NCBI GenBank assembly: GCA_936450465.1
Contig: OW388300.1
Span: forward strand, 21,949,232 to 22,013,231
Reading direction: 5' to 3'
DNA from: Gibbula magus
Lineage: Eukaryota; Mollusca; Gastropoda; Trochida; Trochidae
Length of the DNA: 64,000 bases
Each line of letters opens with the position of its first letter. Position 1 is the stretch's first letter. The notes under the pieces were generated by a model that did no database searches, was not told where the DNA came from, and saw only the letters and a list, made by a program, of their open reading frames with translations. This document shows, piece after piece, positions 1,022 through 58,132 of this stretch. The position numbers and the translations under genes were made by a program.

Positions 1022-1079
1022 CGTAGCTATGAACTGTCCATTGTAGGAGAAACAAGACATAGGGGAGGAACGAATTCAT
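1022..1079 (-). CDS. gene 1 (partial): signal-peptide exon of a secreted protein
   Basis: This 58-nt coding exon starts at an ATG at 1079 and encodes 19 residues plus the first base of a split codon. The peptide (MNSFLPYVLF followed by LLQWTVHSY) has a hydrophobic core typical of a secretion signal. A splice acceptor (gttacag) lies three bases before the ATG, exon edge 1082, and a strong donor GTAAGTTATT follows G at 1022, giving a phase-1 exit like genes 2-8. No downstream exon was found, so the mature protein is unknown and the gene probably runs off the left edge. The match in structure, strand and intron phase makes it a likely eighth cluster member. A chance signal-like open frame cannot be excluded. 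Confidence 0.5.
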
Positions 1080-1082
1080 TTT

Positions 1083-3570
1083 CTGTAACACGTTATCATA
1101 GTACATTTTACAATCATTAACGCTAGAACTACCATACTGTTAATGAAGAAACGTATGTAAAAATATCGATTGTCACGAAAAGTGAGAAACAAGATTGTGG
1201 TATAATTTAAAAACAACGAATGAAAGTTGCAAGAAAATTAATACAAACTTACCCGAGAAAACAATGGGAAACTTGCTCATCGTTTTGAAAACATAAAACA
1301 ATTGTTTACGATACACGTGTTAAATAAAACTGAGGACATCTTAAACAACCCTATGATTTAATGGGTTATTGCAACAGCCACATTGTTGACAAATACAACT
1401 AGAAGGTGTCAACAATATTGTTTATTTACTGTAATAAAAGCCGGTAAACATACCTTTAATCCCAAGTACGCACAGAATGACGATTTACAACGTAACATAT
1501 TCATAAGAATGTGATAAACGATTCAGTATAGTTAACAGGTCTCCATGACAGGCCAGACATTCCTAGTATTGACCCCGGCCCAAATCCAAGTAATTGCCAG
1601 ATTTCGTGTGCTCATTCCTCTTTCAACACCAACAAAGATTCAAAAGCATAGTCCATTGATGAATCAATGAGTTGACCATTCCGACGCGAGTCCTTCACAA
1701 CATGCAATTGGATTAAACAGTAATGCGGTTAAAGAGCCATCGAGTATGTTAATGTTTCTAATGCAACATTTTTGGGAGAAAACATACTTATGATATAAAT
1801 CTTTTATCTGCAACATTACTACAACATTACGAAAATCAAATAAAATTTTGTTTTAAAGACGAATCTGACGTCATATTCACTGAATTCCCATGACTGCATA
1901 AAACGTACTACATACCAACATGCGATTCCGAGGCATGCAGGCTTGTCAATTTCACAATTCGCCATGGCATCACACGTGAAACTCGTTTTTCTCCTGCAAG
2001 CTACCATTGTAACACAATACCGTGACGATTGCTATATTAACATGTTTCTACTTGTCCTGTGAATATACAAACTATGGACAATTTACCTGTTAATGATATA
2101 TTTTAATTTGTTATTGTGATAATACCAGCAAACTATGATAAATATAGTAGGTGTACATTCTCATTGGTTATACAATTCAAGTAAAATACCTAGTAGGATT
2201 AACATCTATTTCAATATATGTAGGGAATACAGACTTAAATTTAATTTTATTTAAGTACTCATAAACTTTGTTTTTCGTTCGTTTTAGGTCGAAAACATCT
2301 GCGAAAAATGTATATATTTTTAATGAATAAATAAGATATATTTTTGGCAATTTCCGATATGTCTATCAACATGCTCGATGGCTCTTTAATGTAATGCTCA
2401 CTCCAACATTACAATTCCAACTATTTATTTAAGAAGTGACGTGGGATCTTAGTCAACTACATGTAGTTTAAATACATCCTATAGATCTTTCAGTAGATGT
2501 GTCTACGTGCGTCTAAATACACATCTCTTATAAATGCTTGGATTCTTAATACATCTGAAAAGTATGATATATTGCAACTGTTCCTTCATTAAAGACATGG
2601 TATTGTAAGTATATCTATAGATATTTATGTGCAATTATGAAATAATGTATATTCCTCGGAAAACGACAATTTATTGCTTACATTTTGAATAGGTTATAAA
2701 CCTGAGTAAAATTCATAGACGGGTGTGATATTAGGCTTTTAGAAGTGGCATACATAAAAGGAATATATTCAGGGGGCGATACTGCTAAAAGAAATACCTG
2801 TCGTTGTTGTTACATTTTAGTATTTAAACATTTTTTTTCATTTTAATAATGATCGAGGTTTAAACTTTATAAGTTGACTTATCATGCTTTTGATTATGAA
2901 CAGTATCCATACATCGTTGTTGATTTTTTAATGATTATTAGTCCCTGTTTTTGTAGACACACAATTAAAAAGTCTTTATCATATCAGCATTCGATTACTT
3001 CATACCTAGCCAATAGAGATCATCACATCGATATTAAACATTACCACATACAGAAAATGCCGGGACATTACGTCTTACGTTATGTAACAGTATGTCAGTA
3101 CAAGAGATCGCAATCTCAACATCAACACAGTGTTGTTCATGAACGATGATATTCGACAGAAATTAGATAAAAAAATATTTATTTTCTTCATTCTATCCAA
3201 GACAAATTACCATATATACAACTCTTACACATCGGTTTCTGTGTCTATCAAATTCAACATCTATTCTACATTCAACATCTATGAATTCAGAAAACAGAAA
3301 GTGAAGTTTTGAATAGCTTCACTTCAAATGTTCCAACCGATCACCAACGTGATGAATAACAGTGACACACGTTCCAGCCACAACACAATCCTGAATGGAC
3401 ATGTCTGGAAACACCCAGAGATTCCAATTGAGGAGACGATACTATATAAACAGGAATTTATACATGAACACTTATTAAAATGGTAACAACGGTATTCAAG
3501 AACATAGTGTCCATTTAAACATGTAGATCCCGTTCAAATCACTTCAGTGAAGTTTGTCTCTAACAATCTT
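1083..3570. other. intergenic stretch between genes 1 and 2
   Basis: Apart from the inverted-repeat element at 1729-2389, no gene is supported. Open frames at 2874-3149 and 3130-3312 (plus) lack codon pattern, domain resemblance or splice context. The 3' UTR of gene 2 should occupy the right end; an AATAAA on the minus strand lies near 3176. Confidence 0.4.
1729..2389. mobile_element. MITE-like element bordered by TTAA (family 1, copy A)
   Basis: The left end reads TTAAAGAGCCATCGAG at 1729 and the right end is its reverse complement, ending in TTAA at 2389. About 24 bases per end match with a few differences. The roughly 660-bp interior carries no transposase. TTAA at both outer edges is the target site used by piggyBac-type transposases, which suggests but does not prove that class. 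A related copy lies at 60369-60801. The small open frame at 1819-2007 is part of this repeat, not a gene. Confidence 0.6.
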
Positions 3571-6033
3571 TCATTTATCAAATAATTCGCCTCCAAAAAC
3601 ATACGAGTTGAAGAAAAGGAAACGGATATAATTCATATACATCTGTCTCCTCTGTTTTTCCCATGAACGTATGTAGTAATCGATCATATGTCCCATTCCA
3701 TAGTTCACACTCGGTGAAGGATAGGTGTAGTGGGTATTAGCTACCCATGCTCGACTGTGACTTTTAACATGCCTTTGGGAATGTCCATAATGTCCATTAG
3801 TTTGTCCATCTAGAACTGAAATCGATGGATGTTGAGATATTTGTCCTTCACTTTCAGATATGTGTTTGGTTGATATATTAAAGTTGGGTGGTTGTAATGT
3901 TGTTTCGAGGACTTGATCTGAGACAGGTGCTGATGTAACCGTTGTCGATTGAAAGAATGAGGTAGATGGTGATGAAGTGGCCTCAGTGTTACTTACTTCA
4001 TCTGTTGTTGTAACCTCCTCTGAATTGTCGAACAGCTGTGTCAAAATCGTCTGTATAGATGATGGTACGCCAAAAGTATCTGAAACGAATATATATTATA
4101 TATGATTGATTTAAACAGTATTTTATTTCCAAATGAGATATAACACACAAGAAAATACGAGAAGTACAATGGAAAAAGGATTAGCAAACAGACTACACTA
4201 GCCTTTGTAAATGCCTCTCCTACATCTCTATATGATACAGTGATACAAACATGTGTCGCCTGTAACGTCAGGTTGTTTTTTTATGTTGAAATAAGGTTAC
4301 GGCACAGACTACATAACACGATATTAAATATATTTATTCGTTATAACATTAAATAACAACGCACTATATGTTACCAGCTTAAGCATAAAGACATAAAGAA
4401 AATAGAGAACAGGAGTTGAAAACAGTTACATATACCCGAGGCTAGCTGTGGCTATTTTACTTCGATGATTCGTGATACATGTATATGTGTCATCAGTAAA
4501 CATTAGGATGAGATTATATTTATCATCCCAAATGATTTCATAATAATTTTTAATGAAATATGTTTATCTCTGAAAACAGCACTGTCATTACATTAAAGGC
4601 ATTCCGAGTTTATTATAGAAACCCGAGATTCCATAACTGACCAACAAGAATAACATAAGTGAGAAGTTCAAATTCTATCAAAAACCTATTTTTATACTTT
4701 AACTAAGATATTGACAAAAACTTTCTACTCCCCAGCGTACGTGATATACAGACACTCTTGCCCATGGGCTGGCCCATTGGAAAATTCGCCCATTGGCCGG
4801 CCCATGAGAGGCTGTTCAAATTGGTGTTACACAAAAATTATTGGGCCAGGTTTCCCATGGGCCGGATTTCCCATGGGCCAATGTTGGTGAAATGTTGACT
4901 TTGGAAAACATATAATGTTTGTGAAATGTTGACTTTGGAAATATTTATTGACTTTGGTGGAAGTGTTACTTTGATAAAATATTGACTTTGGTGACATGTA
5001 GACTTTTAGTATATATTTTGAGTTATATAAATTGTCGACTTATACATTATTCATTTAGTGAAGTGTTGTGTAGTTTAAGTTTACATAAAATAAAATATTT
5101 AAGGAGAGGGGTTCAACTTGGTTGGTCCATCAAATGTACATGCACAAATCTTTCTGGATCCTCGCTAGTAAAGTAGATATATGTATAAACGTTTATATCG
5201 AGTAAACACACATTGTGTTAAGTGTAATTCAGCGTTGTGTAAAGTTCTTTATCATCCAAAACTGGTTCCCACAGTAGATATCGCTTGTGTGAGATCAAAC
5301 GATATCTACAAGCGATATCTACAATGTAGATATCGCAACAATCAAATCGTCACAATCATATTACATCATCAGCTAATGACATCACAAGGCTTTGACATCA
5401 CTGTGAACACTGCTGACAATGTTATGACGTCACAAAGTTGATGACGTAACAATGCTATGAGGCCACAATGCTGATGACGTCACAATGCTATGACATGGCT
5501 GAGATCACTGCTGAAGTAGTCAAATGGCAGTTTTGTGTTGCAGATATGTTCATTATTTTGCTAATAATTGTTGAAGAATGATTTTGAATGATAGATAAAA
5601 TCTCACCACGTGTCTTCTGATATCAAATATATCAACACTCGTTGATTAAGGTAAAAATATCCTCGGCAAGCCTCGGATATTTGTAACTTTAATCAACTCG
5701 TGTTGATATATTGGATATCAGAAGACACTTGGGTGAGATTCTCTATACAACATTAAAGAATAACACTTTTTGTTTGTAATTGACATAATTTTGAATAATG
5801 ATATTTATTACCGTTACCTCCTTTACATAACATTACATAGCATTGTGATGTTATACGAATGTTGACGTCATAGCATAGTGATTTATTATACAATTACGTA
5901 TATGCAGATACATACAACACACTTTTTAAAACAATCACCATGTGCGTTTTAAAGACATTATCAATTGCAGAAACTTACATATCGATGGTAAGAGAAGATA
6001 TACCAGAATCACTGATTTCCTTTTTAAAACCAT
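3571..6033 (-). CDS. gene 2: secreted Ser/Thr-rich protein, two coding exons (187 aa)
   Basis: The CDS joins 5979-6033 (ATG exon, 55 nt) to 3571-4079 (509 nt, stop at 3571). The acceptor tttcttatctttcag stands two bases before the ATG, the donor is T|GTAAGT, and the downstream acceptor is cgtttcag. The junction is phase 1 and the 564-nt total stays in frame. Residues 1-22 form a signal peptide (MVLKRKSVIL...). Residues 37-80 are Ser/Thr-rich and suit O-glycosylation; N86-I-S is an N-glycosylation site; 113-128 is His-rich. An aromatic/basic C-terminal segment carries GHMIDYYI at 148-155, matching an octapeptide in genes 3, 4, 5, 7 and 8, and ends in an acidic-Leu-Phe-Asp tail. Family unrecognised; an extracellular role is inferred from the signal peptide. 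A hairpin repeat and tandem repeats lie in the intron. Confidence 0.75.
4742..5000. repeat. CCCATGGGCC-rich block and 'tgttgactttgg' tandem repeats in gene 2 intron
   Basis: From about 4762 to 4882 the palindromic word cccatgggcc or a close variant recurs several times in both orientations, in otherwise AT-rich DNA. From about 4887 to 5000 a short unit around tgttgactttgg recurs with spacing of roughly 25-35 bases. Both lie in the intron of gene 2. Confidence 0.6.
5277..5500. repeat. palindromic gatatc cluster followed by TGACGTCA-type repeats
   Basis: Around 5277-5336 the word gatatcgcttgt and its reverse complement alternate, giving overlapping palindromes. From about 5375 to 5497 a degenerate repeat of roughly 20-40 bases carries TGACGTCA or near variants (5423, 5475 and others) next to 'caatgct'. 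TGACGTCA is the CRE/ATF site consensus, but here it is part of a repeat unit, so a regulatory role is unproven. Confidence 0.5.
5599..5740. mobile_element. near-perfect hairpin (foldback) repeat in gene 2 intron
   Basis: The left arm begins aatctcacc and the right arm ends ggtgagatt. The arms, about 65-70 bases each, are reverse complements with only a few mismatches and almost no loop, centred near 5670 (cctcggcaagcctcgg). There is no coding content. This is typical of a foldback or short inverted-repeat element. Confidence 0.7.
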
Positions 6034-6039
6034 TTCTGA

Positions 6040-8774: not shown

Positions 8775-11296
8775 TTAGAAATCAAACATGTCCTCAAATA
8801 TATCCTGGCTGTAGAAATAATATAATAAGTATCTGGTATTTTTCAAGCGAGAAAGTGCCTTGATATAGTAACGATACTTATTAAAATACACTATATTGAT
8901 AACTGCTTGAGTCTGGTAAAATAGTCTGCTCAGTCCAGTTGGTTGGTGTTCATAAGGAGGGAAGCTCTTACTCCCACCTGAGTAATACCCTCCAACTCCC
9001 CCTCCCCTGGGTCGTTGAGTAGTTGCAGTTTCGTCTGTGTCTGGGTTGGACTTTTCAGTAACCGGAGGAGCAGGAGGGACTGACGTTGATGGAGTTAATG
9101 GATTTAAACTTGTAACCAGAGTAGATGGCGACTGTGTTGATGAGGTAAACGTCGGCACGATATCCTCAGGGTCCTTAGCATCATTGAAGTCAATCACACC
9201 CGTATCAGTTAGTCTTCCTCCCGCTGTCTTTACATGACCTGTAAATGTATGTATGTCATCACTTTCTGTGTGATTTCGTAAAGTAAGATTTCGCGAGTAA
9301 CATTTAAAAAAATGATTTGACCAATGGTCTGGTTTACTCATTGTTCATTTAGAGTTGACTAACCTTTTTTATGATTCGCATATCTATAACCTGACGTGCA
9401 AACAAAACGTCCCTAATGTTCAATACACCAATAACGCTATACAGTGAAGTGCCTAGGTAGAGACCGCTTAACTAAAACAAACCTGAGAAGTATACACTTT
9501 TCTTTTGTCACTATTTGTGTCCGGTTAACTAAATCATACAACTGTCATCTTATATTCTGCTATATACATGTACATGGTTATCACATGAAGGTTTTCAGAA
9601 GTTTGGATAAGTGAAATACGCGATAAGTAAACATTTTGACGAGACCCTTGTTATTTTACTTATCAGGTTGCCACTGTAGTTTTAAACGGTTGATATACAA
9701 AACACTCTACACTCTACTGGTTGGTGTATCGATGTTAACCCAAGGCGTCTTGATGTCCTACAAAAGGCAAAACTCAAAATTACTTTAGATGAGACCCGCT
9801 CAACGTATGTATTTGAAACCCGCGTGTTGTACAGCACATTGGCTAACTTCACCGTTAGAAGGGGTACTCGAGATCAATATATCACAAAAGTATTCTACCA
9901 TCAATATCTTGAACAATATCCAACAGTTGACATCAGTTTATCCTTCCCAAAGTGAATATCTATTATACCATTTATATCACAATCTATCAATTGGAGAGCA
10001 CACCACGATGTGATAGAACTTATAAATGATGTCAACCTATATACGATTGCTATTGAATTTCATTATTATGTCTGCAAGATGTAGTTAAATTACCCTCAAT
10101 CAGTGACTAATTTGTACGAAAGGTATCAGCTCTTACGAGTAATAGTTAGAATAATTACAGTCATCTTTTATTATATTTTGTATTTATATATATAAATCCA
10201 GCTGCTGAATACATATTGTTCCTTCTCCATGTATCCAATGTTGTATTCTATTGAACCAGTTGGGTTGGTTATCATACTACAGTTGCATACATAAACTGGC
10301 ATCAAACAGACACGTCACATCGTCTTCAAAGGAGAAAACAAATACTGCTGCCGGAGAAAGGCGATTTTGAATGTATTTGTTAGGCAGATATCTTGTAAAG
10401 TTCTCACAGTTTCAATCATAAGAGTATGGTACCTGTGATTTTCTTTTCAAAATGTATTTTGGTCATAATTTGTGGTAATGAAGATAAAACTTATAAAGCT
10501 ATGCTTGGACTTTACACTGTTGACGCATCATTACAGTAAGACGACATAAATCAAGCCAAAAAGTCATTTTAAACTCTCCTATTTCGTCTAGATAAGGACA
10601 ATCAAAACCAACGATTTCTTAAAAGGTCGGTTTTCAGAAACATGAACAGAAAATATTTTTTTAAAATTCAAATTAATATAAGTTGGCTTCTGCAGGTGTA
10701 ACTCTACTTCAGCGTCACTCATTGAAATATCCCGTATATGTACGGTGACGTTTCTTATGCACGTGAAATTACATGTATTCCCGTGAATGTTAATGTTAAT
10801 GTTAAAGCTTAATTTTAACATTTTGGTCTTTCAAACGCATGCTTTATTACATCTCGTGTACACATCAAACCATATTTCAAGTGTCGTACCACACGGAAAT
10901 CTAATCTGATGTTGACTTTTTTTTTTTTACATCTGTTTAAATCTCGAATAAACTAATTAATATAAAAGATTTCCTTTTTACTATTTGCGATAAACATGTA
11001 CTTTGACACTATGGTGTAAACTGAATACTGACTAACGTTACAATCATATTTTATCAGTACTGACAAGTTCCACATTATCATCCTGACTTTATAAAACAAC
11101 CAGGAACTTGCAACCTATTGAGAATGACAGGATTTTACAAAATCAATCTCACTCAGCGAGATAAGCATGGCCATTTGAACGGTGAACTTCTGTAAACTAA
11201 AATCATGAAATACAATTAATGTTAGTACTTACTGATCTGTATTACTATCAATGACATTAAGATCCACTTCATCAACCCTCCGTGTAATTTGCACAT
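8775..11296 (-). CDS. gene 3: secreted Thr/Pro- and Tyr-rich protein, two coding exons (175 aa)
   Basis: The CDS joins 11233-11296 (64 nt) to 8775-9238 (464 nt). The donor is A|GTAAGTAC and the acceptor is catttacag. The junction is phase 1 and the 528-nt total is in frame. The signal peptide covers roughly residues 1-22 (MCKLHGGLMKWILM...). A Thr/Ser/Pro-rich linker spans about 50-105, followed by a Gly-rich patch (GGGVGGYYSGGS). The C-terminal 50 residues are rich in Tyr and Phe, carry the shared octapeptide as QAVINIVY (132-139), and end in FEDMFDF. The order, signal then Ser/Thr linker then aromatic tail, matches genes 2 and 4. Function is unrecognised; an extracellular structural or adhesive role is a guess from composition. 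The single-exon frame extending to 9341 is intron read-through. Confidence 0.75.
10330..10760. repeat. dispersed repeat, copy A (inside gene 3 intron)
   Basis: Segments such as 'aaatactgctgccggagaaa' and 'ggtgacgtttctt' match, in the same order and orientation, a stretch at about 18120-18500, with divergence and indels. No coding function is apparent. The open frame at 10588-10821 (minus) lies in this repeat. Confidence 0.45.
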
Positions 11297-13112: not shown

Positions 13113-15269
13113 TTAGAACATATCTAAAAGTGCAAAGGTGAAGAATGAATCATATAGACTCTGGTAAGGGTTCCCATATTGCAGTGGATAAAAGCCTTGA
13201 TATTGTTGTTGATAGTATGGGTAGTACTGATTGTACTGATTGTACTGATTCTGTAGTTGCGATCGGTAAAGTTGATCCATAATCGATTGCATTAACAGGG
13301 CCTGTTGATTTATTGTACTTCCAGTATTCTGATTATCAACTCGACTGGAAGCAGGTGGTGGCGTTGTTGGATTATTTGCTGTTGTTGCAATTGTAGTTGT
13401 TGAAGTGGTTGTCGTTGTTACTCCGTTAACTTGCGGGGTTGTTGTTGCTATCATATACGCTGCAGGAGTTGTTGTTTCATCTGAGGTAACTGCAGGAGTG
13501 GTCGTTGCCTCTCCAGTTGCTGAGGTTGTAGTTGTTGGAGATGTTGTTTCTCCAACGTCAGCTGTTGGAGTTTCTGTTTCATCAGGGGTAGCTGCAGGAG
13601 TTGTTGTTTGCCCACCATTTGCTGAAGTTGTTGTAATCCCATCATTAGCTGCAGGCGTTGTTGTTTCTCCGCCATTAGATGCAGGCGTTGTTGTTTCTCC
13701 GCCGTTCACTTGAGGAGTGGTTGTTTCTCCGCCGGTCACTGCAGGAGTTGTTGTTTCCCCGCCATCAACTGCAGGAGTTGTTGTTTCCCCGCCGCCAGCT
13801 GCAGGAGTTGTTGTTTCTCTCTCATCTGTTGCAGGAGTTGTTGTTTCTCCACCGTTCACTGCAGGGGTTGTTGTTTCCCCGCCATCAGCTGCAGGAGTTG
13901 TTGTTTCCCCGCCATCATCTGCAGGGGTTGTTGTTTCCCCGCCACCAGCTGCAGGAGTTGTTGTTTCTCCCCCATCAGCTGCAGGAGTTGTTGTTTCTCC
14001 GCCGTCAGCTGCAGGGGTTGTTGTTTCCCCGCCATCAGCTGCAGGGGTTGTTGTTTCCCCGCCAACAGCTGCAGGAGTTGTTGTTTCCCCGCCACCAGCT
14101 GCAGGAGTTGTTGTTTCCCCGCCATCAGCTGCAGGAGTTGTTGTTTCTCCGCCGTCAGCTGCAGGGGTTGTTGTTTCCCCGCCAACAGCTGCAGGAGTTG
14201 TTGTTTCTCCGCCACCAGCTGCAGGAGTTGTTGTTTCCCCGCCATCAGCTGCAGGAGTTGTTGTTTCCCCGCCACCAGCTGCAGGAGTTGTTGTTTCTCC
14301 CCTATCAGCTGCCGGGGTTGTTGTTTCTCCGCCGTCATCTGCAGGGGTTGTTGTTTCCCCGCCATCATCTGCTTGAGTCGCTGGTGTTAAACCAATTAGA
14401 TCACCAACCTCGGATTCCGTCACCGCTTCAGCTACGCGTCCTGGAAAATATATTTGAGAAGTGAATGTCAGTTTGTGTCTGAAAATTAACAATGCAATGC
14501 GTTATTCAAACTCGTGTGAACAACGAGCGTGCGAGCGTTCACGTTTGCGCTGGAATAACGCTTTGATATCGTTCATTCATTCAACACACAAACTGATATT
14601 CAGTTATTATAATTTCACATATTATGACAAAAACACATTTTGCATCTTAGTAATCCTATAGATAAAGTACTGTTATAGCGGAGTATTACAAGGTCAATAC
14701 CCGTGAATCAGTAACATTCTTTGTTATATTGTTACACATGATTTATCCAATCAAAACTATGTTTGTCCTTCCGTTGTCAGAAATACGATTGTGAAAATAC
14801 TTAGTCAGGAAATCTCACTATCTCTATCATAAATGGCAAAGTTTAATAAGCCTGTGGTTAAATACATGGCCTTTAGATAGTGAACACATGTACTATCATT
14901 ACGTTTGGGATGACGAAGTCATGGTGGTCTACTTTATAAGGTGTAGGTATAGTCAGTGCTGGCGGTTGGTGCCTGGCTCTGAGGGTATGAGTTGGAATTT
15001 CGCTAAGGAACTCGTCCCGAACAAAACACGAATTTGAACTATCATAGGATATCAAACAAAGTAAACGTTTTCTTTAATAAAATCTCCTATCTATATGTGA
15101 ATATCAATGAATATGAACTATAAACTAATTACAATACAGTAAGCAATATACCAGTCCCATTTATCGTGTAACTACCCCGTCACGTTAAAGCAATAATATT
15201 AACCTTACCATAAAGCGAAAGTAACAGGAAAACTGTTCCGAAAAAGACAGCTTGGCGTTTGGGAATCAT
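13113..15269 (-). CDS. gene 4: secreted mucin-like protein with 25 tandem decapeptides (462 aa)
   Basis: The CDS joins 15209-15269 (61 nt) to 13113-14440 (1328 nt). The donor is G|GTAAGG and the acceptor is atatattttccag. The junction is phase 1 and the total is 1389 nt. The signal peptide begins MIPKRQAVFF, with likely cleavage after AEA at residues 24-26. Residues 44-293 are 25 near-perfect repeats of the type AADGGETTTP, followed by degenerate Thr-rich sequence. This is a mucin-like, probably O-glycosylated, acidic stalk. The tail has QSIMDQLY (405-412), a Gln/Tyr/Asn-rich stretch, and the ending FFTFALLDMF. The octapeptide and tail resemble gene 8 most closely. The 30-bp unit lacks stops in most frames, so long overlapping frames on both strands are artefacts. 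Function unrecognised; a matrix, mucus or adhesive role is plausible. Confidence 0.85.
13600..14375 (-). repeat. 30-bp coding minisatellite within gene 4
   Basis: About 25 copies of a 30-bp unit (plus strand begins gcaggagttgttgtttc), encoding the Thr/Pro decapeptide. Variation is mostly in the codons for the D/G/V positions and at synonymous sites. Copy number is likely to vary between individuals and may be mis-assembled. Confidence 0.85.
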
Positions 15270-18943: not shown

Positions 18944-20298
18944 ATACTAATGGAAACGAATAAGGGAACGCTTAATTACTGTTAACTTATGTCTGGCATG
19001 TTCCGTTTGTTTGAGGCTGCGTGGGGCCATTATAAACTGAAAATGTTGATGTTTACTTTCACTGAAAAGGTACCATGCAGGTGACAATTGATTTCCATGA
19101 ACTTCATGCATGGCAACGTCCATTTCACCTTCAAGAAATCAACGAATGTCAGTGTACCTTTACTTTCAGAATCATGCCTAGAGCATACCTTTCTGATAAT
19201 GAGAAGTGGCAGGCTATCGGCAGCATCAACAACGGTCAATCAATATGACAGACAGCCAGACGATTTAACAAGTCTAAAAGTGTGATTTCGCGACTGTGGA
19301 ACCGGTACCGTCAGACAGGGAACGTAAACCCGGTCGTGGTCCAAAACGTAAGACAACGCCCCGAAACGACCGCCAGCTGGTGCTGCTGTCCTTACGTAAC
19401 CGATTTAAACCAGCATCGGAAATAAACTCTGAGTTCAGAGCAGTAACGAGAATTTGTGACCGTACTGTCAGAAACAGACTTAAAGCAACAGGCTTAAAGT
19501 CACGTCGTCCTGTTGTTGGGGTAAGGCTGACTGCGGAACACAGACGTCTCAGAAGAGCATGGGCTACACAACATCGAGTTAGACAACTTCGATATTGGCG
19601 CAATACCATGTTCAGTGATGAGTCACGATTCAATTTGGACTTCGCAGATGGTCGGATCCGCGTTTGGCAACGCCTTCGTGAACGTCACCATCAGTGTACC
19701 ATCAAACAACACGATTCCTACGGGGGCGGATCTGTGATGGTATGGGGCGGCATAACCTATGACCATAGGACCAACCTTGTTCGACTTGATAGAAGGGTGA
19801 CTGGTGTCCGTTACCGAGACGAAGTGTTGCAACCTGTAGTTCTTCTTTTCCGCCGTAGAGTGGGTGTAAACTTTGAGTTTCAACATGACGATGCTCGACC
19901 CCACACCGCTTACGTCAGCATGAATTTTCTCACGCAAAACAACACCAGAGTGTTGCCATGGCCGTCCAAGAGCCCAGACATTAATCCCATTGAACACCTC
20001 TGGGACGTTCTTGGACGTCGGGTGAGGGATCGTGATGTTTACCCCAGACACCTGACACCATGTTCCAGGCTCTCCAAGAAGTGTGGCGCGCAGTTCCTCG
20101 GGCTGTCATCCGGAAGTTGATCCAAAGTGTTCCACGACGGTGTGAAGAAGTAATCAGGAAACAGGGAGGACACACCAGATACTAACATTTCATCTGTGGT
20201 GTACATACTCAATGAAATATACTTGATCAAAAACCCATGACAATAGAACAAATTTCACCATCAATACATGCGTTCCTTTATTCATTTCCATCAGTATA
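18944..20298 (+). mobile_element. Tc1-like DNA transposon with terminal inverted repeats
   Basis: The left end reads atactaatggaaacgaata and the right end is its near reverse complement (tattcatttccatcagtat). About 27 bases per end match with four or so differences, and TA lies at the edges. The roughly 1.35 kb length is normal for Tc1/mariner. The interior holds one transposase gene broken by mutations. It interrupts none of the cluster genes. Confidence 0.8.
19174..20185 (+). pseudogene. Tc1-like DD34E transposase, broken
   Basis: The longest frame (19296-20120) holds the catalytic core: D in FSDES (residue 108 of that frame), D in QHDDARPHT (198), and E in SPDINPIEHLW (233). Thirty-four residues separate the last two, the Tc1 signature, with SVMVWGGIT between the two aspartates. 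The N-terminal helix-turn-helix part begins at the ATG at 19174 in another frame, contains an in-frame TGA (SI*QTARRFN), and shifts frame near 19325. A second frameshift near 20045 moves the C-terminal part into a third frame, ending at 20185. With one stop and two frameshifts this copy cannot make a full transposase, although the catalytic triad survives. Confidence 0.85.
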
Positions 20299-29101: not shown

Positions 29102-30045
29102 AACAATTCAGAGCTTCCCTTTTTAGATGTGAAAGTATCCATCTCGAATAATGTTGTAGAAACGGATGTGTACTATAAACCAACTGATTCTAAGCAATAT
29201 TTGGATTTTAACTCCTGTCATCCACGACATACAAAAAACAATGTATCATATTCATTAGCTAGAAGAATACGCATGATCGTTTCAAACTCAGATCGCTTAG
29301 AATTTAGACTAAATGAACTAAAAGATCTATTACTACAGAGACACTATCCAAGGCAAATCATTGATGACGCCCTTTGCAAAGCTAGGCGGCAAAATCGGAA
29401 TGATCTCCTTAAAATAAGAGAACAAGTACACGAAAAGGTACTACCATTTGTATCAACATTTAACCCTAGAAATCCTGAAATATTCACCAAATTAAAAGAA
29501 ACGCTCCAACCCTTACGGAAATGTGATACTTTAAAAGACAAACTCTCACAGGCATCCCTTATTAAAAGTAAAAGGCAGAGCCGAAGTATAAAACAAATAT
29601 TGACCAGGGCTAAATTTGATCAGTCAAGCCAGGATGACAAATCAATTAGTAGGTGTGAAAGACCAAACTGTGGTACTTGCCCGTATTTATTACAAGGAAA
29701 AGAATATACTTTCAAAAGTGGCCATTTATTCCAAGTACGGGAAACATGACATGCGCGTCGCAAAACTTGATATATGTTATCAAATGCAGAGGATGTGACG
29801 AGGACTATATTGGACAAACGGGAGATACACTAAGATCAAGAGTGAGGGTCCACAAACAACAAATAAGGGACCCCTCCTACCGCTACATTCCACTGAGTGG
29901 ACATATAGATAGATGCGCCGGGAATAAAACTCCAAATTTTAAAATATTCCCATTCTACAAAGTCATGTCAGACAGCGATGAAAAGAGAAAAATCAAAGAA
30001 AACTATTTCATCAGAGTCTTTAAAACCACGATAAAACAGCATTAA
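29102..30045 (+). pseudogene. Penelope-like RT C-terminus plus GIY-YIG endonuclease, frameshifted
   Basis: The first frame (to 29749) starts LPFLDVKVS, then TDVYYKPTD and YSLARRIR, the conserved RT thumb region of Penelope-like elements. A linker with a Cys-rich motif (CERPNCGTCPYL) follows. A frameshift near 29700-29750 moves the rest to the frame ending at 30045, which holds the endonuclease: LIYVIKCRGC in the GIY position, DYIGQTGDTLRSRV, and a trailing GHIDRCAG...FKIFPFYKV region. The GIY-YIG domain nicks target DNA to prime reverse transcription. Lacking the RT catalytic core and carrying a frameshift, this copy is inactive. Confidence 0.85.
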
Positions 30046-34183: not shown

Positions 34184-37100
34184 TTAAGACATTCGACGGT
34201 AGAAGTTAGCTCCTTGCCAAAAGGCGTCATAATATTGTTGCGAGGACGGTTGTGATTGTCCTGGCTGGGTATACACGGGGCTTTGCCCATTACCTTCCAC
34301 CTCGGCGTTCCCGTTCTGCCCATTACCCCCTTCCATCGGCTCCGGTTCCTGTTGTTCCACGGGCGGAGGAGTGGCGTCCCATTTGAACCCCCCAGTCATT
34401 GAAATAGCTAGGGGGTCAACTGGGCCCGAGGGGGCTGTAGCCCCTTCTGGGGAGAGGGTTGTTGGTTCACCTGTTGGTGTAGGAGTTGTTGTGGTCGTTG
34501 TTGTAGTTGCCGTCGTTCCTTGAGGAATAGTCGGTCGATATAGTTGAGAGTTTTGCGGCTTTTGACGAGGCTGTTGGTATTGGTTGGTACGGTATTGGGT
34601 TGCCGGTCTTCTGTGCTGCTGATGTCGTTGCTGTGGATAATATGACGTTGGACGTTGCTGTGTTGCTGTACGTTGTTGTGATGTCGGACGTTGCTGTGTT
34701 GCTGTACGTTGTTGTGATGTCGGACGTTGTTGTGTTGCTGTACGTTGATGTGTTGTTGGACGTTGCTGTGTTGCTGTATGTTGTTGTGATGTTGGACGTG
34801 CTGGGTATTGCGGTTGACGACGGTAAGGTTGTCTATAATATGTTTGATATCCATTTTGAGGATTGTACTGGCGAGGTGGAGTTATCTGATACGTTGGTCT
34901 TCGTTGATATTGGTAGCTGTTCTGGCGAGGTTGATATCCCTGGTATTGGGATTTGTAATATCCGGACGATGCCGATGTTTGGTACGTTTGAGGGTAGCCT
35001 CTTCTGTAAGTTGGATTTGGCTGAGTGGGAGGTTTGCGGTAGCTATATGTTTGTTGACTCTGAGTTTGTGGTCTGTATTGTTGTGGTTGACGGTATGCCT
35101 GATACTGGGTAGGGTAAGTGTTTTGCTGTCGTTGCTGCTGTTGCTGCTGTTGCTGCTGGGTTGCCGGGTATCCTGCTTGTTGATATTGAGACTGTGTCTG
35201 ATACTGCTGACGACGGTAGGAAGGATGGATGTACTCGCTTGGTATGGACTGTTGGTAGGGAGTATACGCTAGAGCGGCAACTGAAAAGATAGATATACAA
35301 TACATAAAATATATGGAAGAATGATACACCGTTTGTTCTACCTGATCCATTTACAATACCTTAATATATTGATCCATATTTTTGTCAGCATTCTGACGGT
35401 TTGTATATTGAATTTGATTAATTCGTATACGATTTCATTTCGTAATGACAGCGATGGCCAATGGAATCCTAAAACATGTATATAACTGGCTGTTCTGAGG
35501 CAGTTGTGGTGCTAAGTGTCACCACGTACATATGTACATTCTACATGTAGGCATCAACAGTAAGACACATATTTAAACTGATCCACATTTTTCTCAAAGT
35601 AGTCAATAGACTAAAACAGGCTTTATAGGGTCATTTCGAACATTGATGTCAATATTCTGTTTGTTTTATCTCCAAGTTTAGGGTGAAGCGGATCATGTAA
35701 TTCTTGACAGCTTACATCCAAAAACAAAACAAAACAGGTGAATAGTTATTGAGTTTCATTTGTACATATAGGTGAAGGTCACAAACCTCTTTGGGGACAA
35801 CACTCTCACTATGAGTAAGCCAATAAAATAATTGGAATACCATGGGTTCCTGGGATTGTTAAACGGGTTATAAAAGTAAACACAAGTTAGCATGCCCAAC
35901 ACAGTTTGTTATTTACCGCCAGCTATCAATCACCCTAAACAGCCAGGTAGGAAGGAGAATCAGATGTAGAACAAGAAGAGTTCATACCAGGTTAATAAAT
36001 AATGTTTATTGCAGGAAATAAGTGTCTCGTACACAGCTTAGTGACAATTTATACCCTGGGAGATCTTTTTTTATTCCAAACCTAATAATAGCATGGTGTA
36101 GGCTCATATCTTTAGTCAGTTTTCTATTGTTTTTTCTCCACCTATCCTTGGATGTCTGTCCTCTGGTGTTTGTTATTGTTATTGTATAATTCCATTCTTC
36201 CTTACATTCTAAGTTTGTAAATGACGACTTCTACCGACAAGGGTGACATGCTTATCATGTTCTGGAAAACTTGATGTCATTGCCTTTCAGTTTTTAAATT
36301 GTTTACATTTACATTTTTCCTAGTTAGTCAATAACATTTGGAAATATTTCACTATCGAAACGTCTTTCATTCTAAAACATTTAAAATATGATTTATAGGG
36401 TATCTAATATTTTGAAGAGTACCATCTTAATAATATTATTGATATGTACACGTATATGCCATTCTTATTCGTGTTCACGCATGCTACAGATTTCTTAAAG
36501 TGTATATGGAATAAACATTACATAACGCGGAAAGGAAATTGCTAAATTTGGTATTAATTTATAGTAAAAGAGTGTCCTGAGTCGTATTTACTCATAAACG
36601 TAGCAAATCTCCACCGCATTTATGACACATTTGGTAAACCGTGTGTCGTCCAGTATTGAAAACATTTAGTCTCTAGTTCTCTCTAGTTGTTAATATAATT
36701 AATATCTTTTTTTATGTATACAGATAGTTCAATATTGATATGGCATAAACTGAAAACAGTTTTTCAAAACGAAATGTAGCAATATTTAAAAACCTTTGAT
36801 TCATCACTTAGAAAATACATTTTATAATAAACAATATGAACTATGTACTACCATAGAACCGACATGTGCTCAATTAGCACTGCATAAACAATATATTGTA
36901 TATGTTAAAAGAGATAACTTTACATTGGACAATTCGTTTCTTCGTTATATGTAACCTTCTTAACATATTAAAATTAATATCATATCCACTGCCTTTAAAC
37001 AGGCATCAGCAATGCCAAAAACATTTCTAAAATTAAAGGTGTTTACATATTTTATAGCGTAAAATAACGTTTTGAATTTTCCTTTTTTTGTTCAACGTAG

Positions 37101-39415
37101 TGAAAATCTCATTTGGATTTTAAACAACTAGTGTATTCATGGTTGTGTCTGTTTGAAAAATCAAATGCAAATTTGGGCATCAATAATAGCAATAGTATTT
37201 ATTGATATGCTAATAGAATAATAAGTGAATCCAAACTAGCCCCGAGAAGTATCTTAACTGCCTGTCAGTGTAAATATGTATCGTAATCGGTTGGTTTGAG
37301 AAATGATTTCAAGGTCCGTGAAGCCTTGGAGTCAGACAGATTACCTTTACAACATACCAAGATGCGCACAACCGCGGACAAAAACCACCTCATGGTGGAT
37401 CAGGTTTTAGAGTGCCTACTTGGCGTCATTAGGCCTCTACAATGACGTCATCAGTCAGGACATGGTTGATGTCATGGTTTAGTGGCAGATACATATCAGA
37501 GCCATGTTCAAGAGATGTTAAAAGTAATCACTCAATGAGCGGCAAGCGGATTCCACCACCTTTTGTCCTGTGTTTTAATCTTCTCTTGAACGCAATTGCT
37601 CAATGTAGCGCTACGTAGCAAATCTAGTAAACCTCGAGGAATCGCACCGTGTCGTTCAGGGGAGAATGGGCGCTAAAAGTGAGCGCTCATTGAGCGATTA
37701 TAAGCACTCACTGTTATGGAACGGATCCCTGGTGGTGTTTTTGGTTCAGCATTCATAATTGAGAGACAAGTACTAAATATGTTTCACTTTTAATTGAACT
37801 GCCGGATAGTGCATCAAGCAGTCTTATTTGCCAAAACAAATCACATACGAGAGTTTATTAAGAACGTAACAATAACACTTTATCATTTTATCGGATCTAT
37901 AAAATCGTTTGTTTGTTACTTCTACGCATCTCTCCAATGTTAATTTGGAGACAAATAATGGGTGTATGGTTTAAATCTTTAAATAGAATAATTACAATTT
38001 TATTTCAAAATCAAAACATTAAATTTGTTCGTGGACATCAACCAAACAAAGACGCGATCCATGTCCATCATCTGTGTAATACTGGTTTCCAATGGTTTCC
38101 ATTGTAATCACATTGTTGACTTCGCCTCATTCTTATTTTCGTTTATATTGTTAATGAATCAATAATATAAGTTTCAATATATATTATATATTCCATTTTA
38201 TTTTTCACATTCGTATAAGATTCAAATAACTGTGTCGAAAAGTCGCACTCCCTGAATAAAGAAGTTGTTATTAAATGAGTGCTTTTATTTGACTTCAAAC
38301 TTCTAAAATGCCACTCAAAGCAATGTGCTTATCATTAGTATATTATCGTGCAACCTGGCACACTTTGAAACAATATAAGGTATGATAAATATAATTGGAA
38401 TCGGTTATACACAAAACTTTAAGCGTTTAGTTTAAGTGTTTACTTTGAATACGGCTAATTAATAACATCAGTATAGCACTTTATCCCAAGATAGTATGAA
38501 CATATATAGGTCCCAATTTGGTTCTTATAAATCAACATAGTTATGTAAACATATGATTAGCTATGCAAACTTAAATCATGTTTTTTTATCAGCATTGAGA
38601 CAGTCTGATCCATTGTTTTATTTAGTTAAGTGACCAACAAAGGCACGACGAACATACTTCAAGGGAGACAACACGACAAAATGTTACTCTGGAGGTAATG
38701 GACTTCATTTTAGTAGGTACATCATGAGCTATTTCTCAAAGTATTTCCCGATAAAAGAGATTTCGGGTATGTTGCCAATATATCTGTTCTTCAACATTGT
38801 GTTCCCATGAATGTAAACTCTTATCGAAAGAATGAAGTCAACTGTGCCGAACAGAGGAGTCGCTGTTCAAAGTTACGTCATCGCTTATAAGTGTCAAACA
38901 GTCAATGGAATGACGTCACATTAGTTTTTTACTGGTTCCAATAGTCAGTTCCATATTGGTTATTGATGTTTCGTCACCAATGTTCGTAGATGGAGCAATG
39001 CAAGAATAATTGGCTGATACATTGAGACCAAGTCCCAAAGTGACTGAAATGGTGACAATTAATGAGAACATAAAGATGACTTAACATCACTGTAACATTA
39101 CTTCATGTACCATATCGTACAGGCCCTTCTTTCACAAAGCAACCTTAGGTTAACATTAACTCCCTTACTTTAACATTGCACTAAGGAACCTTAGTGACTT
39201 ACGGTCACCTTAGCGCATTGACAATGAAACCTGCTTTAGGAATTAAGTTTATGGGTCATCGTTTAATGTTGAACATCGTTTATTGTTGAACATTGTACAT
39301 AGGACATACGTACTATGTTAAATATTTCAAGTTTATAAAATTGTTTAGATTTACCTGAGTTATACGTAAGTCCATAAATAAACAGGATCGTGACCAGGTG
39401 ACATGCTTTCGTCAT
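34184..39415 (-). CDS. gene 5: secreted Gln/Tyr/Pro-rich protein, two coding exons (385 aa)
   Basis: The CDS joins 39355-39415 (61 nt) to 34184-35280 (1097 nt). The donor is G|GTAAATC and the acceptor is tatcttttcag. The junction is phase 1, total 1158 nt, with an intron of about 4.1 kb. The signal peptide begins MTKACHLVTI and likely ends near VAALA (about residue 25). Residues 28-270 are very rich in Gln, Tyr, Pro and Arg, with a polyglutamine run and about four copies of a 12-residue unit (RTATQQRPTSQQ). A Thr run then leads to an acidic Gly/Asn/Glu segment. The end carries QQYYDAFW (368-375), a form of the cluster octapeptide. Composition resembles disordered, cross-linkable extracellular matrix or adhesive proteins. 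The signal exon resembles that of gene 6. Another exon in the long intron cannot be ruled out. Confidence 0.75.
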
Positions 39416-49628: not shown

Positions 49629-50699
49629 TTAGTACGTACTGGCAAAATCAGCAGTTTTCTGCAGCATGTAAAGGATCGCTTCCAATCCAAATGATTTAAT
49701 TCTAGCGAATTCATGCACTTTAGTCAGAAATTCCCGAGTTTGTCGATGTTTGGCCCCATCCTCAGTGAGTGTCTCCTCCAGCTGATTCAACATTGATTGA
49801 AGACTTTCAGCTGAAACATTATAGACGTCCATTAAAGCTCACGTTTGCTGTAACGCTGTCAATACTTTATCATTTATTCAGAAATAAAATAATGAGATTT
49901 ATCGATGGAACGACCCAGCTTTCAAGAGACAATGATGTTGTGAGTGATTTACGCTATATTACACTAATGACAGTTTGTTCGCTGATAGCAGTTCACAAAA
50001 CTAAAGTGGGTATTCATTAACAGTGTACTAAACAGTGAACACTACAATTCATTATGTTTTCTATCAACAACACATCGTTCTCGAGATAGAATTCTGGTCA
50101 TCACGTCATATCTAATAGCTTGGAAATACGTATATAATTTCAACTAAAAATACAAGCTTATAACCCGAGAAAAACAACATAAATAACAACATGTAAAAAT
50201 GTTTGTGATAATCTGTAAACGACAAAATATACATTAGATTCATCAAGGATCTGTAACCTTCTAATATTCCTGAAATAATCTGGACGACTTCATGACCTCT
50301 CCTTTGAAATGTCCTTCTATATGACTGTGTTTGTAATAACTCTGGCATTTAGGCGTTTGTAGATATTTTATTCCAAGATATTATTCTCATAATTTGGTTG
50401 TTCGAAAAGAGTTCTTTCTTATACTTAAAATCCTTTCTCCCCGCAGAAAGTACTCAAATTATACTTTTCAACAATAATTTCATTGCAACCGTTTCCTTTG
50501 CATGTACATGTAATATATATTTCTGGTTGCGTTAAAATTAAGTAGATGTTGTTTGAAACATTGCATACACAGTTTCGTCATAGGTACTATGCGCATATTA
50601 TATAATATAAGACACCTCACCTGTTGGCATGGGACGTACCATGTCCATCACAATACACAGCATTACCACGACAAGCATAACTTTTAGTAGTGCAGACAT
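49629..50699 (-). CDS. gene 7: small secreted helical protein, two coding exons (86 aa)
   Basis: The CDS joins 50621-50699 (79 nt) to 49629-49810 (182 nt). The donor is G|GTGAGGTG, the acceptor is ataatgtttcag and the junction is phase 1. The signal peptide is strongly hydrophobic (MSALLKVMLV followed by VVMLCIVMDM), with cleavage near residue 27-28. The mature part is Glu/Lys-rich and probably helical, carries QSMLNQLE at 31-38 (shared octapeptide) and ends FASTY. It has no Cys in the mature part and no low-complexity repeat. The 79-nt signal exon equals that of gene 8 in length, and both have ACACC...GTCATC before the ATG, so genes 7 and 8 are likely duplicates. Family unrecognised. Confidence 0.75.
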
Positions 50700-54633: not shown

Positions 54634-57539
54634 TTACAGCCCCCTGTCGAATCCATCCATGAGGAAGACCCAAGGAGAAAGCCTGAAGGAGTTCTGTTGA
54701 GCAGGGGGAGGTTTGTTGTACATGTTCTGCATGATGGTCTGTAACATCTGTCTCTGCAGGAAGAGGCTGTATGGGGACAGTTGGGGTCCAGTTTGGGGTA
54801 TGGTGTTTGTATTTGTTCCTGAAATAGAACAGTGATAACGGTTTAATATAATATATATACCTATGTCAGATAATACAATGTATGCTGAAACATTTATAAG
54901 CAAGAACACATCGGGCGTGTAATAAAGCCAGACGATCAGTGTGCTCTCTCAGAGAAATTGGCTTAAAAACAGGTGGTATCAATCCTATGGGTGTTTAAAA
55001 ATATGTCAGAGAGTTATCTGTCCCTGTGCCTTCTATTCATGTGAGTACACAGAGATGGAAGGCACCCAACGTATGTTGTACACAATCTACACGTACGGTC
55101 CTCCAGACTTGCTACTGTTCAACATCTTGGACTATGGTCCATGCATGGATATATTGATTGAGTTCAAATTATCCTTGCTGTGTAGGTTATTTAATTGCAA
55201 TATTGTTGTGTTCATAAGCATATATTCAATTTCAGATTTGGACAGTATGTTGTAAATAATGTATGTAAATCCTCAGTGACTCATGATCTGTTGCATATCC
55301 TTAAAAATATGGACTGTGGTCATATGTTGAGGACTACCTCAGAACTGACACGTTTCCAAATAAGGTTACATTGAAACGGACTGTGAATGAGAGAATTACA
55401 GAGTATGAACGATTTCAATGGAAACAGATGCTGAGCGATCTTCCAGATATGACCCGAATTGCCATATAGATTGTGAACTGAAAGCCCATAGGCTGGGGCA
55501 TGTGTGAGCTATTTGAAATGAATATACAAAATGTGTTTTGTCTCATTAAGCTTGGTGTTCTGCCTATAACATCAGGTTTATGCTTACTGTGTGAAAACAC
55601 AACTAGCAACTAGTTGTGTGACAATTTCAAAATATCTTATACCCTGTTCGCATGCACTAAATTTACTCCTATGAGCAAATTTGCTCATAAGTAAATATAC
55701 TCATGTGAGTAAAAGCAAAATTACTAAGCGTTCGCATGACATTGACAACAAGGGGGAGTATTTCATTATTTTATGTTGTTTAAACATAAAATAAACTTAA
55801 AACCTTAAGAAAAATAGAGCCATGGGCTCAGTAGCTCTCAGGGTTTACATTGTTTGATATTGAAAATAGAAATAGATTGTTCTCAATATGATTTATACAC
55901 TCAGACTCTGTTTATTCTGAAAATGTTACCATTTTATTGTAAGAAATGGTATTTTCGGAAAGAGGCTCCTTTCCAATATGTTTTCAATATTTTTACTCAG
56001 AGTCTAAGTAACATAATTCATAATCCCTAGCCCTGAAAAGATTCTGTCTTAAAACATTTCAGTGTATAACAAAAACATGACTTGACACTAATGTTGGATA
56101 AAATTGGTTGTCCAAGTATCACAATTCCTGCAAATATATTAAAGAAAAGGTGTTACACAGTATTATACAATGTTATCTACTGTCTCTCCCAGCCGGGTGT
56201 TGCCTGCTAGAGTAAAGAGAAAAATTGAATTTAATGATAGCTCTATAATCTTTATTTTTCAGAGTAGAAAAGGTTGTAATATCATTCATACAAAGAAGAT
56301 CTTGTCAAAACTTGAGAGTCCTAGCATTACTAGTTCCAGGAGTGAAATTTACGGTTTGAGTTCATCACTCTGCCATGCCCAGATTTTAGGAAGGATTTTG
56401 ACCAAAGGAACAAACTAAAGTATACATATTATAAAGTTGTTATTCTGATAATTATACCTTTCTGTATCAAATGGTTTATGAGAAGAAGTCGTTTAAATAG
56501 CTTAAAATGCGATGGCATGACCAATTTACTCCTGTCAACAAATTTGCTTATGAGTAAATATACTTTTGCACGACCCCTTGACTAGGTGCAAATTTGCTCG
56601 TGGAGTAAATTTACTTAGGTGAGTAATTGCGTTCGCATGCACTAAATACTCACGTGAGTATATTTACTTACGTGAGTAAATATACTCAAGTGAGTAAATC
56701 GATGCATGCGAACAGGGTATTAGTTTGAAGACAGTTGTGACGAGACAAAGATACACACATTACTAGGCGATATCACTCAAATAATTGATCATATTTGACT
56801 GATGCATGGACAGCAATGATAATCATTATTGCAAAGAATATAAGTTCATGGAACTTGAAATCTATAATGTACTTGTAGCATGTATATAAACCATTATCTG
56901 TATAAAATATCAATTTAAACCTTTTTGTGACATGTATGTCTAACATTTGATTTAATGTATACTCTTCATTTATATGGAGGAAATAAAGACTGCATTCATT
57001 CATTCATTATCACAGAGATTATAATTGGTCTTCGTCCTTCAGCTATCGCTGTATACATTCCAATAGGACACTTGATACCATGGGGGTTACGTTTACATTT
57101 TCCTGGCATGGTGATAGCTTTTTAAGATACAAAGGATCAGGATATAGTGCTGACAGATAGAGATGTATAAGTTAACCTCGTGAAACAAATGTTTGGTGAA
57201 GATATAGTCATTTTATTAACGCTTCATGTTTATACCTATGTCACTGAATGTGCAATATAGATACATCGGGAATAGACGTTATCACTGTCTACTAGTTGGA
57301 CATCATGGAAACTATTTCCAAAGGTACATGTAGTAACACGATAAGATCGGTAAGACAATTACATGGTGACTCAACAGCAATACCAACTGTATCAGCTTAT
57401 AACTATTCTTCTCTTACTAATGCATGTACGGTTCTATGACACAGTTGTGAAACAACCTACCTGTGCTCATAGATTGAACGGCTATGATCAGAAATGCCAG
57501 GATCAGAATGCGGACAGTTTGGAATGTTAGGAACGCCAT
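54634..57539 (-). CDS. gene 8: small secreted protein, two coding exons (87 aa)
   Basis: The CDS joins 57461-57539 (79 nt) to 54634-54818 (185 nt). The donor is G|GTAGGTTG, the acceptor is tgttctatttcag, the junction is phase 1 and the total is 264 nt. The signal peptide begins MAFLTFQTVR, with a core of I/L/A and probable cleavage near residue 24-26. The mature part of about 60 residues starts Thr/Asn/Pro-rich, then has a Gln/Met-rich helix-like piece with QTIMQNMY (53-60), then PPP, and ends SPWVFLMDGFDRGL. Both the octapeptide and the F-x-L-M/L-D-x-F tail match gene 4, although gene 8 lacks the decapeptide array. It is effectively gene 4 without the mucin stalk. Its 2.6-kb intron contains a large foldback repeat. 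Family unrecognised. Confidence 0.8.
55639..56720. mobile_element. foldback element with ACTCACGTGAGT-type subterminal arrays, in gene 8 intron
   Basis: The outer ends ataccctgttcgcatgca (55639) and tgcatgcgaacagggtat (56720) are reverse complements. Inside each end lie several copies of palindromic words such as gagtaaatatactcacgtga, densest at 56520-56700, which can form many alternative hairpins. The interior of about 800 bp is AT-rich with no transposase. The frame at 56170-56418 is unsupported. Confidence 0.75.
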
Positions 57540-58072
57540 GATGACTTGGGGTGTATTCTGTAACAATCAGAAGAAACCAATATAGTATCATGAGAAATTG
57601 ACATGTTAAAAATAATCGTACATGTATATTACAATCGTATCATATTTGGAAATTTACACTTATCTTTACTTAGAAAGTTATCGTTTTGATGAAGTATACA
57701 AACTGTAAGTGCTAAAGTGATATTGACATGATACACCAAATACTCATAGTTTAATCAGGAATGATTATAGCAATCCGAACATAACTTAGTATTATGACCT
57801 TCTGGACACGTTCAAGACAATAGGAAATTGCAATCGTATTATATTTGGAAACACAAACCTATGTGATACTTATTTATGTGTCCGTTTGGATAAAATAAAC
57901 CAAACCTTAAGTGGTAAAAGGGATATTGCTATACTGCACACAAAACTGAGGAATCTTTAAAAACCTTATCATTCAACAAATCAGTTGTCTGCTCTGATAG
58001 GACACAACTATACATTAATAACTACAAACATCAAAATCAAATAGGAAATTAATTGAAAAACTGATTACTTAC

Positions 58073-58132
58073 TATTAAGAGTATCCAAATCTGTGGGGAA
58101 TGAGGGGAAAGCCTTTCTTCTTTCTATTTAAA
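58073..58132 (-). promoter_or_regulatory. TATA box and noncoding first exon of gene 8
   Basis: On the minus strand TTTAAATAG (58124-58132) lies about 30 bases before a likely start near 58100. The noncoding exon ends at 58073 before the donor GTAAGTAATC. The next exon starts at acceptor edge 57557 (gttacag) and carries the ATG at 57539. Confidence 0.65.

Follow-up and report, generated by a model that had tools for sequence, protein, structure and literature searches.

Known clusters of genes for secreted structural proteins

Among described systems, the chorion gene cluster of the silkmoth and the shematrin gene clusters of pearl oysters appear closest in architecture to the locus reported here. 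Silkmoth chorion genes, according to the accessible part of the source, carry a minor first exon of ~50 nt and a major second exon, are arranged as tandem head-to-head pairs and are subject to gene conversion (PMC4639761). For pearl oysters, the accessible text records tandem clusters of lineage-specific shell protein genes, including shematrin and N19 (PMC4759782; PMC4897951).

The locus that we compare with these systems lies on chromosome 12 (C12) of the turban top shell, Gibbula magus, which is a vetigastropod of the trochid family. The window, by which we mean the whole 64,000-nucleotide stretch of DNA that was analysed, corresponds to C12 positions 21,949,232-22,013,231, and the cluster extends beyond it on both sides to span ~270 kb. 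It comprises 35 gene models in total: 16 divergent or edge members (G1 included), 16 copies in an array of two short gene types, A1 and A2, and three right-hand members, R1 to R3.

As in the chorion locus, so far as the consulted portion of the source describes it, families of secreted structural proteins would be gathered in one place (PMC4639761). Head-to-head pairs with a minor and a major coding exon are found in all eight array units, whereas none of the 16 divergent models shows such pairing. The same partial text gives late chorion pairs a separation of ~330 nt, a shared promoter and a high cysteine content (PMC4639761), whereas the Gibbula pairs have 2.2-3.6 kb between their ATGs and encode nearly cysteine-free proteins. 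In a Pfam scan of 14 proteins (L1, L8, A2 and R1-R3 being outside it), the array-type protein G1 matched neither the chorion family nor any other, and the remaining 13 gave only matches below the curated cut-offs. We do not claim a sequence relation to chorion.

The resemblance to the pearl-oyster clusters would be that of a molluscan, lineage-restricted set of tandem genes, several of which encode secreted low-complexity proteins (PMC4759782; PMC4897951, in the parts available). Those sources, to the same extent, list five shematrin genes on two scaffolds with Gly-rich repeats (PMC4759782; PMC4897951), whereas the present locus holds ~35 models with T-, S-, Q-, G- or P-rich bodies that mostly close with a hydrophobic/aromatic-acidic tail. 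A Gly-rich repeat body of the shematrin type is not the rule here, with glycine the leading residue in only three of 17 distinct proteins (L1, L3 and A2, at 20, 25 and 11%) and T, S, Q, P or L leading in the others.

The vertebrate SCPP cluster encodes, as the present locus may, secreted, disordered matrix proteins whose kinship is evident in gene plan more than in sequence. Its introns are virtually all in phase 0, as stated in the accessible text (PMC6732285), whereas the Gibbula signal intron is in phase 1 and the body is a single exon. Membership was rejected on this basis, given that the signal-exon donors counted on the window's minus strand are eight in phase 1 against one each in phases 0 and 2. 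The shematrin/prisilkin-like cluster of Hydractinia also contains clustered genes for repeat-rich secreted proteins that are hard to align, but it is cnidarian and has glycine XGnX repeats, and the accessible portion of the report makes no mention of a C-terminal tail (PMC11876637). The Accripin11 family is characterized, in the part of the source consulted, by a cysteine pattern and an Asp-rich end (PMC9808598), whereas the Gibbula tail is mainly aromatic and aliphatic with a few acids. A conserved cysteine pattern is absent from the Gibbula proteins (0-2 cysteines in the mature part of all 17), and membership among the accripins was rejected.

Gene models in the window and its flanks

A preliminary description of the window reported seven complete genes and a partial eighth, each with a short signal exon ending in phase 1 and a single body exon. 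This common plan is indeed found in the models of the window. We recover six complete two-exon coding models, all on the minus strand (57539/54818, 50699/49810, 39415/35280, 15269/14440, 11296/9238 and 6033/4079), together with the signal exon of the eighth gene, but not a complete seventh. The candidates that remain for the latter, at 46885 and 31629, were rejected: their donors are weaker, and as bodies they offer at best ORFs of transposon type or short ones due to chance. The count of eight is also too low, as the cluster continues well past the window to the left and right. The features of the window are as follows, with positions outside it signed.

57978..58385, minus strand: promoter and 5'UTR-exon block of G1, 85.6-88.5% identical to each of the eight array copies
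58132-58124, minus strand: TATA-like TTTAAATAG of G1, within the promoter block
ending at 58073, minus strand: 5'UTR exon of G1, with a predicted transcription start near 58100
57461..57539, minus strand: signal exon of G1 (an edge copy of the A1 array type), 79 nt, phase 1, donor CAG/GTAGGT
54634..54818, minus strand: body exon of G1, tail FRLSPWVFLMDGFDRGL, 87-aa protein, acceptor score 6.1
50621..50699, minus strand: signal exon of G2, 79 nt, phase 1, donor CAG/GTGAGG, acceptor 20 nt upstream of the ATG
49629..49810, minus strand: body exon of G2, 86-aa protein lacking the typical tail, acceptor score 3.4
39355..39415, minus strand: signal exon of G4, 61 nt, phase 1
34184..35280, minus strand: body exon of G4, Gln/Thr/Pro/Tyr-rich (23% Q), 385-aa protein lacking the typical tail, acceptor score 7.4
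15209..15269, minus strand: signal exon of G5, 61 nt, phase 1, acceptor (score 10.4) directly 5' of the ATG
13113..14440, minus strand: body exon of G5, GGETTTPA repeats followed by a Q/Y-rich stretch and the tail FFTFALLDMF, 462-aa protein
11233..11296, minus strand: signal exon of G6, phase 1, 64 nt or, counted from the second ATG, 40 nt, with the weak donor TCA/GTAAGT (score 1.5)
8775..9238, minus strand: body exon of G6, tail SQDIFEDMFDF, 175-aa protein, acceptor score 2.5
5979..6033, minus strand: signal exon of G7, 55 nt, phase 1, acceptor 2 nt upstream of the ATG
3571..4079, minus strand: body exon of G7, tail VFGGELFDK, 187-aa protein
1022..1079, minus strand: signal exon of G8, 58 nt, phase 1
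-1086 to -1495, minus strand: body exon of G8, tail YVFLADSDWF, just left of the window

The G1 gene plan includes a separate 5'UTR exon ahead of the signal exon, and its promoter block can be aligned to the array, unlike most of its intron. Position 58132, taken earlier as the upper limit of the cluster in the window, belongs to the TATA-like TTTAAATAG. Good splice sites at both ends had been attributed to every model. This description is apt for most of them but not for 11296/9238, which has a donor score of 1.5, an upstream acceptor score of 0.7 and a body acceptor score of 2.5. Weak body acceptors (2.1-2.8) are seen in G6, L5, L6, L7 and L8, and weak sites elsewhere in L2 (donor 1.9) and R2 (acceptor 1.2).

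We read 100 kb on either side of the window and then a further 30 kb and 7 kb on the right, where the reading ends at +204.3 kb and passes over +194 to +197.3 kb. The left flank contains nine more models, reaching down to -66.9 kb, of which eight are on the minus strand, so that 15 of the 16 divergent models share one strand inside 125 kb. For L1, L6 and L7 the body exon initially emerged from a scan that sought tails, though a scan by length only also yields it. On the right flank are eight head-to-head pairs of short genes, followed by R1, R2 and R3. A search of the genome (1,470,318,725 bases in 140 contigs) with the A1 protein returned 34 matches, 29 of them at C12 22.00-22.15 Mb; the other five fall on other contigs with E >= 0.7, and credible matches are confined to this locus.

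Several repeats and mobile elements lie among the genes. ORFs of mobile-element type occur in the window at 22602-23741, 19278-20117 and 29659-30042, with a tyrosine recombinase domain, a Tc-type transposase and a GIY-YIG domain, respectively, and a tandem repeat with long open frames separates G8 from L1 (~-2.7 to -9.9 kb). Elsewhere in the assembly, contig C140 (16,058 bp) carries mitochondrial genes. Translated with the invertebrate mitochondrial code, its simple repeat at ~6.3-6.8 kb (locus L050) gives a long run of Met-Tyr repeats.

Signal exons and intron phase

In the search for signal exons, which covered all three phases, an ATG exon had to show a hydrophobic core and to have a donor as well as an acceptor upstream. 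The window yields eight phase-1 donors, one in phase 0 and one in phase 2 on its minus strand, and none in phase 1 and one in phase 2 on its plus strand. By comparison, 60 dinucleotide shuffles of the window give a mean of 0.38 phase-1 candidates per 64 kb, with a maximum of 2. Six of the eight phase-1 donors belong to accepted models (57461, 50621, 39355, 15209, 5979 and 1022); the remaining donors, 18603 and 18585, have a single ATG between them and were left out of the models. The G6 signal exon at 11296 falls below the scan threshold. Between -70 and 0 kb the minus strand holds seven phase-1 candidates, six of which are in models, and between -100 and -70 kb the same three-phase scan finds no phase-1 candidate on either strand. 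A control of real sequence also yields none, but we place little weight on it because its 24,212 bases are few and composed of repeat loci.

The preliminary description regarded joins of exact multiples of three as very unlikely to arise by chance. This argument is weak: our own models were likewise assembled by looking for phase-1 joins and extending each to the following stop codon, which makes any in-frame join a multiple of three and the frame correct by construction. Phase-1 introns directly after signal peptides are also common in the secreted-protein genes of animals, as Tordai and Patthy reportedly found. To derive a common origin from the exact joins alone is therefore too strong a claim, and better evidence for a family lies in the complete cluster and in the C-terminal tail.

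A shared C-terminal tail

Most members end in a short hydrophobic/aromatic-acidic tail, such as WSLFEDVFEL or WVFLMDGFDMGL, a feature overlooked in the preliminary description. Under a rule that was set after the tails had been seen (within the last 12 residues, two or more acids, five or more hydrophobics and no more than one base), 13 of 17 distinct genes qualify, versus 70 of 1,182 control ORFs, which are chance ORFs of the same DNA and not real coding C-termini, and 31 of 3,542 internal 12-mers from the same proteins. R1-R3 were found later and stand outside these 17-gene counts. The four genes that do not conform are G2, G4, L5 and L8. Among the seven genes touching the window, which had been chosen earlier without knowledge of the tail, five conform (with A1 in place of G1).

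In a leave-one-out score, the 17 tails lie at a median of 1.9% of controls, and no median among 300 draws of as many control tails is below 17.5%. Individual genes differ in this respect: G4 and L8 score like ordinary ORFs (667 and 546 of the 1,182 controls score as high), and A2 scores poorly (257). The tail core WxFLMDGF is invariant in all 17 A1, A2 and G1 copies and is present in R1 and R2, with one change in R3.

The array and the right-hand members

The array, which runs from 66 to 121 kb on the right, consists of eight tandem units, each formed by an A1 gene (minus strand) and an A2 gene (plus strand) placed head to head. Unit DNA is 88.7-99.9% identical across ~3 kb, and the encoded proteins are 87-88 aa long. 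A Polinton/Maverick-like element adjoins the array at ~+126.8 to +140.4 kb (loci L025-L026), with ORFs for a type-B DNA polymerase, an integrase with a chromodomain and a BIR domain, and with a match to an adenovirus-type protease that falls just short of the cut-off. Satellite-like long tandem repeats with open frames on both strands follow at ~+141 to +188 kb. The right-hand members lie beyond this Polinton-like element and satellite DNA, in the following order.

+192.9 kb: R1, a right-hand member that aligns with A1, A2 and G1
+199.4 kb: R2, a right-hand member with a weak acceptor
+203.8 kb: R3, a short right-hand member with a budding glutamine run

Reading frames are intact in all 17 array-type copies (nine of A1 type, with G1, and eight A2), and one further array-type copy at ~+189.5 kb contains an in-frame stop. 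Mean pN/pS is 0.59 for the A1 type with G1 (n=9) and 0.60 for A2 (n=8), and it is higher in the signal part (0.84 and 0.81) than in the body (0.55 and 0.48) of A1-type and A2 genes, respectively. Between G1 and the A1 copies, dS is 0.236 in the signal exon and 0.029 in the body, and the G1 body sits within a ~230-bp block that is 93.9-97.4% identical to array copies. The low body dS and this block of high identity together suggest that the G1 body exon has undergone gene conversion.

Kinship among the members

A comparison of 18 sequences identifies A1, A2 and G1 as clear homologues. It also gives an N-terminal match between L1 and L3 (E 1.3e-4 one way and 9.7e-4 the other), a tail match between L6 and L7 (E 0.0013 and 0.01) and a match between L5 and L9 (E 3.6e-4) that probably reflects composition. 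When a profile of five array-type bodies (A1, A2, R1, R2 and R3) was applied to 15 divergent proteins, L1 was recovered clearly (8 of 1,258 control ORFs and none of 60 own shuffles score as high). L3 stands out against its own shuffles only (0 of 60, but 142 of 1,258 controls), G7 is borderline (2 of 60 own shuffles and 56 of 1,258 controls), and the other 12 of the 15 are chance-like. No convincing k-mers common to the promoters of the genes were found.

Since the profile clearly recovers only L1, common descent of all members is not demonstrated, and from sequence we judge that of the whole cluster to be likely rather than proven. The earlier proposal that the genes were built from one template is accordingly retained with respect to gene plan, clustering and C-terminal tail, but for most members it is not borne out by ordinary sequence similarity.

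Character of the proteins

The first exon is hydrophobic and the proteins are biased in composition toward Thr, Ser, Gln, Gly, Pro and Tyr, with secretion predicted from sequence. Mature parts are mostly of low complexity. A protein database search with the array protein yielded no candidate, and a PDB sequence search with the same query yielded one chance match (E 0.85). Looking up six peptide words in an open-access literature collection brought only two NLR papers, which have no bearing on the cluster. The earlier impression that no known family is represented thus agrees with the Pfam result for the 14 proteins, and that of a fast-changing family of secreted type agrees with the sequence features of the cluster. 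A toxin-type cluster had been among the options offered, and we reject it because these nearly cysteine-free, mostly low-complexity proteins have no cysteine framework.

Single-sequence AlphaFold models place helices at residues 16-34 and 49-58 of the G1 body, the second being in the tail (mean pLDDT 67.6), and a long low-confidence helix ahead of the tail in G6, a poor model (mean pLDDT 49.6). The composition of G4 is like that of a very abundant Gln-rich protein of abalone nacre, predicted to be disordered according to the accessible part of the source (PMC6003135).

Interpretation and alternative explanations

We favour the reading, at a probability of roughly 0.55, that the genes of the cluster form a lineage-restricted family whose products are secreted structural proteins, largely disordered and nearly free of cysteine. 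It builds on what can be seen directly, namely the models, their clustering, the tail enrichment, the head-to-head array and the 17 intact frames. The most serious rival, although an unlikely one, is that unrelated secreted genes, sharing only the common animal plan of signal exon and phase-1 intron along with low complexity, were gathered by chance or by one open chromatin domain. The negative profile test for most divergent members and the general frequency of such introns after signal peptides are consistent with this explanation, but the gathering of all but one of the 16 divergent models on a single strand over 125 kb, the leave-one-out tail enrichment and the L1-L3 N-terminal and L6-L7 tail matches argue against it. 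We consider it very improbable that decayed or non-functional ORFs were mistaken for genes. Repeats easily yield low-complexity ORFs, in-frame joins arise by construction and one array-type copy has an in-frame stop; against this stand the all-phase shuffle control, the 17 intact array-type copies with pN/pS ~0.6, the conserved G1 promoter block and body frames of up to 668 codons.

Other alternatives concern what the proteins would do. Egg-coat or other reproductive structural proteins, forming a fast-evolving egg envelope or jelly much as chorion builds the silkmoth eggshell, seem rather unlikely to us. The array does follow the chorion plan of minor first exon, major second exon, tandem head-to-head pairs and signs of gene conversion, as that plan is given in the accessible text (PMC4639761), and external fertilization is recorded for G. 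magus in the consulted portion of another source (PMC10394393). However, the cysteine richness of late chorion genes is lacking, and none of the 14 proteins scanned against Pfam has an egg-coat domain. More doubtful still is that the 87-88 aa array proteins are processed precursors of antimicrobial or signalling peptides, with the tail as the active peptide. Their short length, their hydrophobic signal exon, the 16 very similar array copies and the invariant tail core would suit such precursors, as would an Arg-Arg pair found by eye in R2 more than 20 residues before the tail. By eye, however, the bodies of A1, A2, R1 and R3 have no dibasic pair, the tail is acidic and not cationic, and a like tail occurs on proteins of 140-680 aa.

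The body includes a freely changing stretch of low complexity in which Thr, Ser, Pro, Gly or Gln abounds, followed in several members by a Leu/Met/Gln-rich stretch that may form an amphipathic helix, and usually closes with the hydrophobic/aromatic tail and acidic residues at the very C-terminus. Under the favoured reading of a structural protein family, the proteins may be secreted by one epithelium, where their disordered parts would form a gel or fibre and the tail would act as a contact for assembly or packaging. If the tail is such a contact, signal and tail would be kept by selection as the middle is reshaped through duplication and repeat slippage. Splicing, secretion, expression, tissue and the role in assembly are predictions here, and we regard matrix of the shell or periostracum as the likeliest product, with mucus or an egg coat also possible.

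Implications

We tentatively suggest, with more doubt than conviction, that the locus is a molluscan counterpart of the SCPP and chorion loci. One ancestral short secreted protein would have given rise to a 270-kb supercluster by tandem duplication, with selection acting solely on the plan of the signal exon and on an aromatic-acidic assembly tag at the C-terminus, and with the middle freely rebuilt (lengths of 77-680 aa, rich in T, S, Q, G or P). If so, short array-type members like R3 (+203.8 kb), in which a glutamine run is budding, would represent living intermediates that link small members to large ones. In the open-access literature, mostly surveyed short of full text, we recognized no mollusc cluster of this size tied together by a C-terminal tail.

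Matrix proteins of molluscs often have no detectable relatives. If the members described here are one family by gene plan and tail, these two features would offer a route to relatives that sequence searches miss, and the cluster would provide a single locus in which to trace how low-complexity matrix proteins emerged from a small ancestor.
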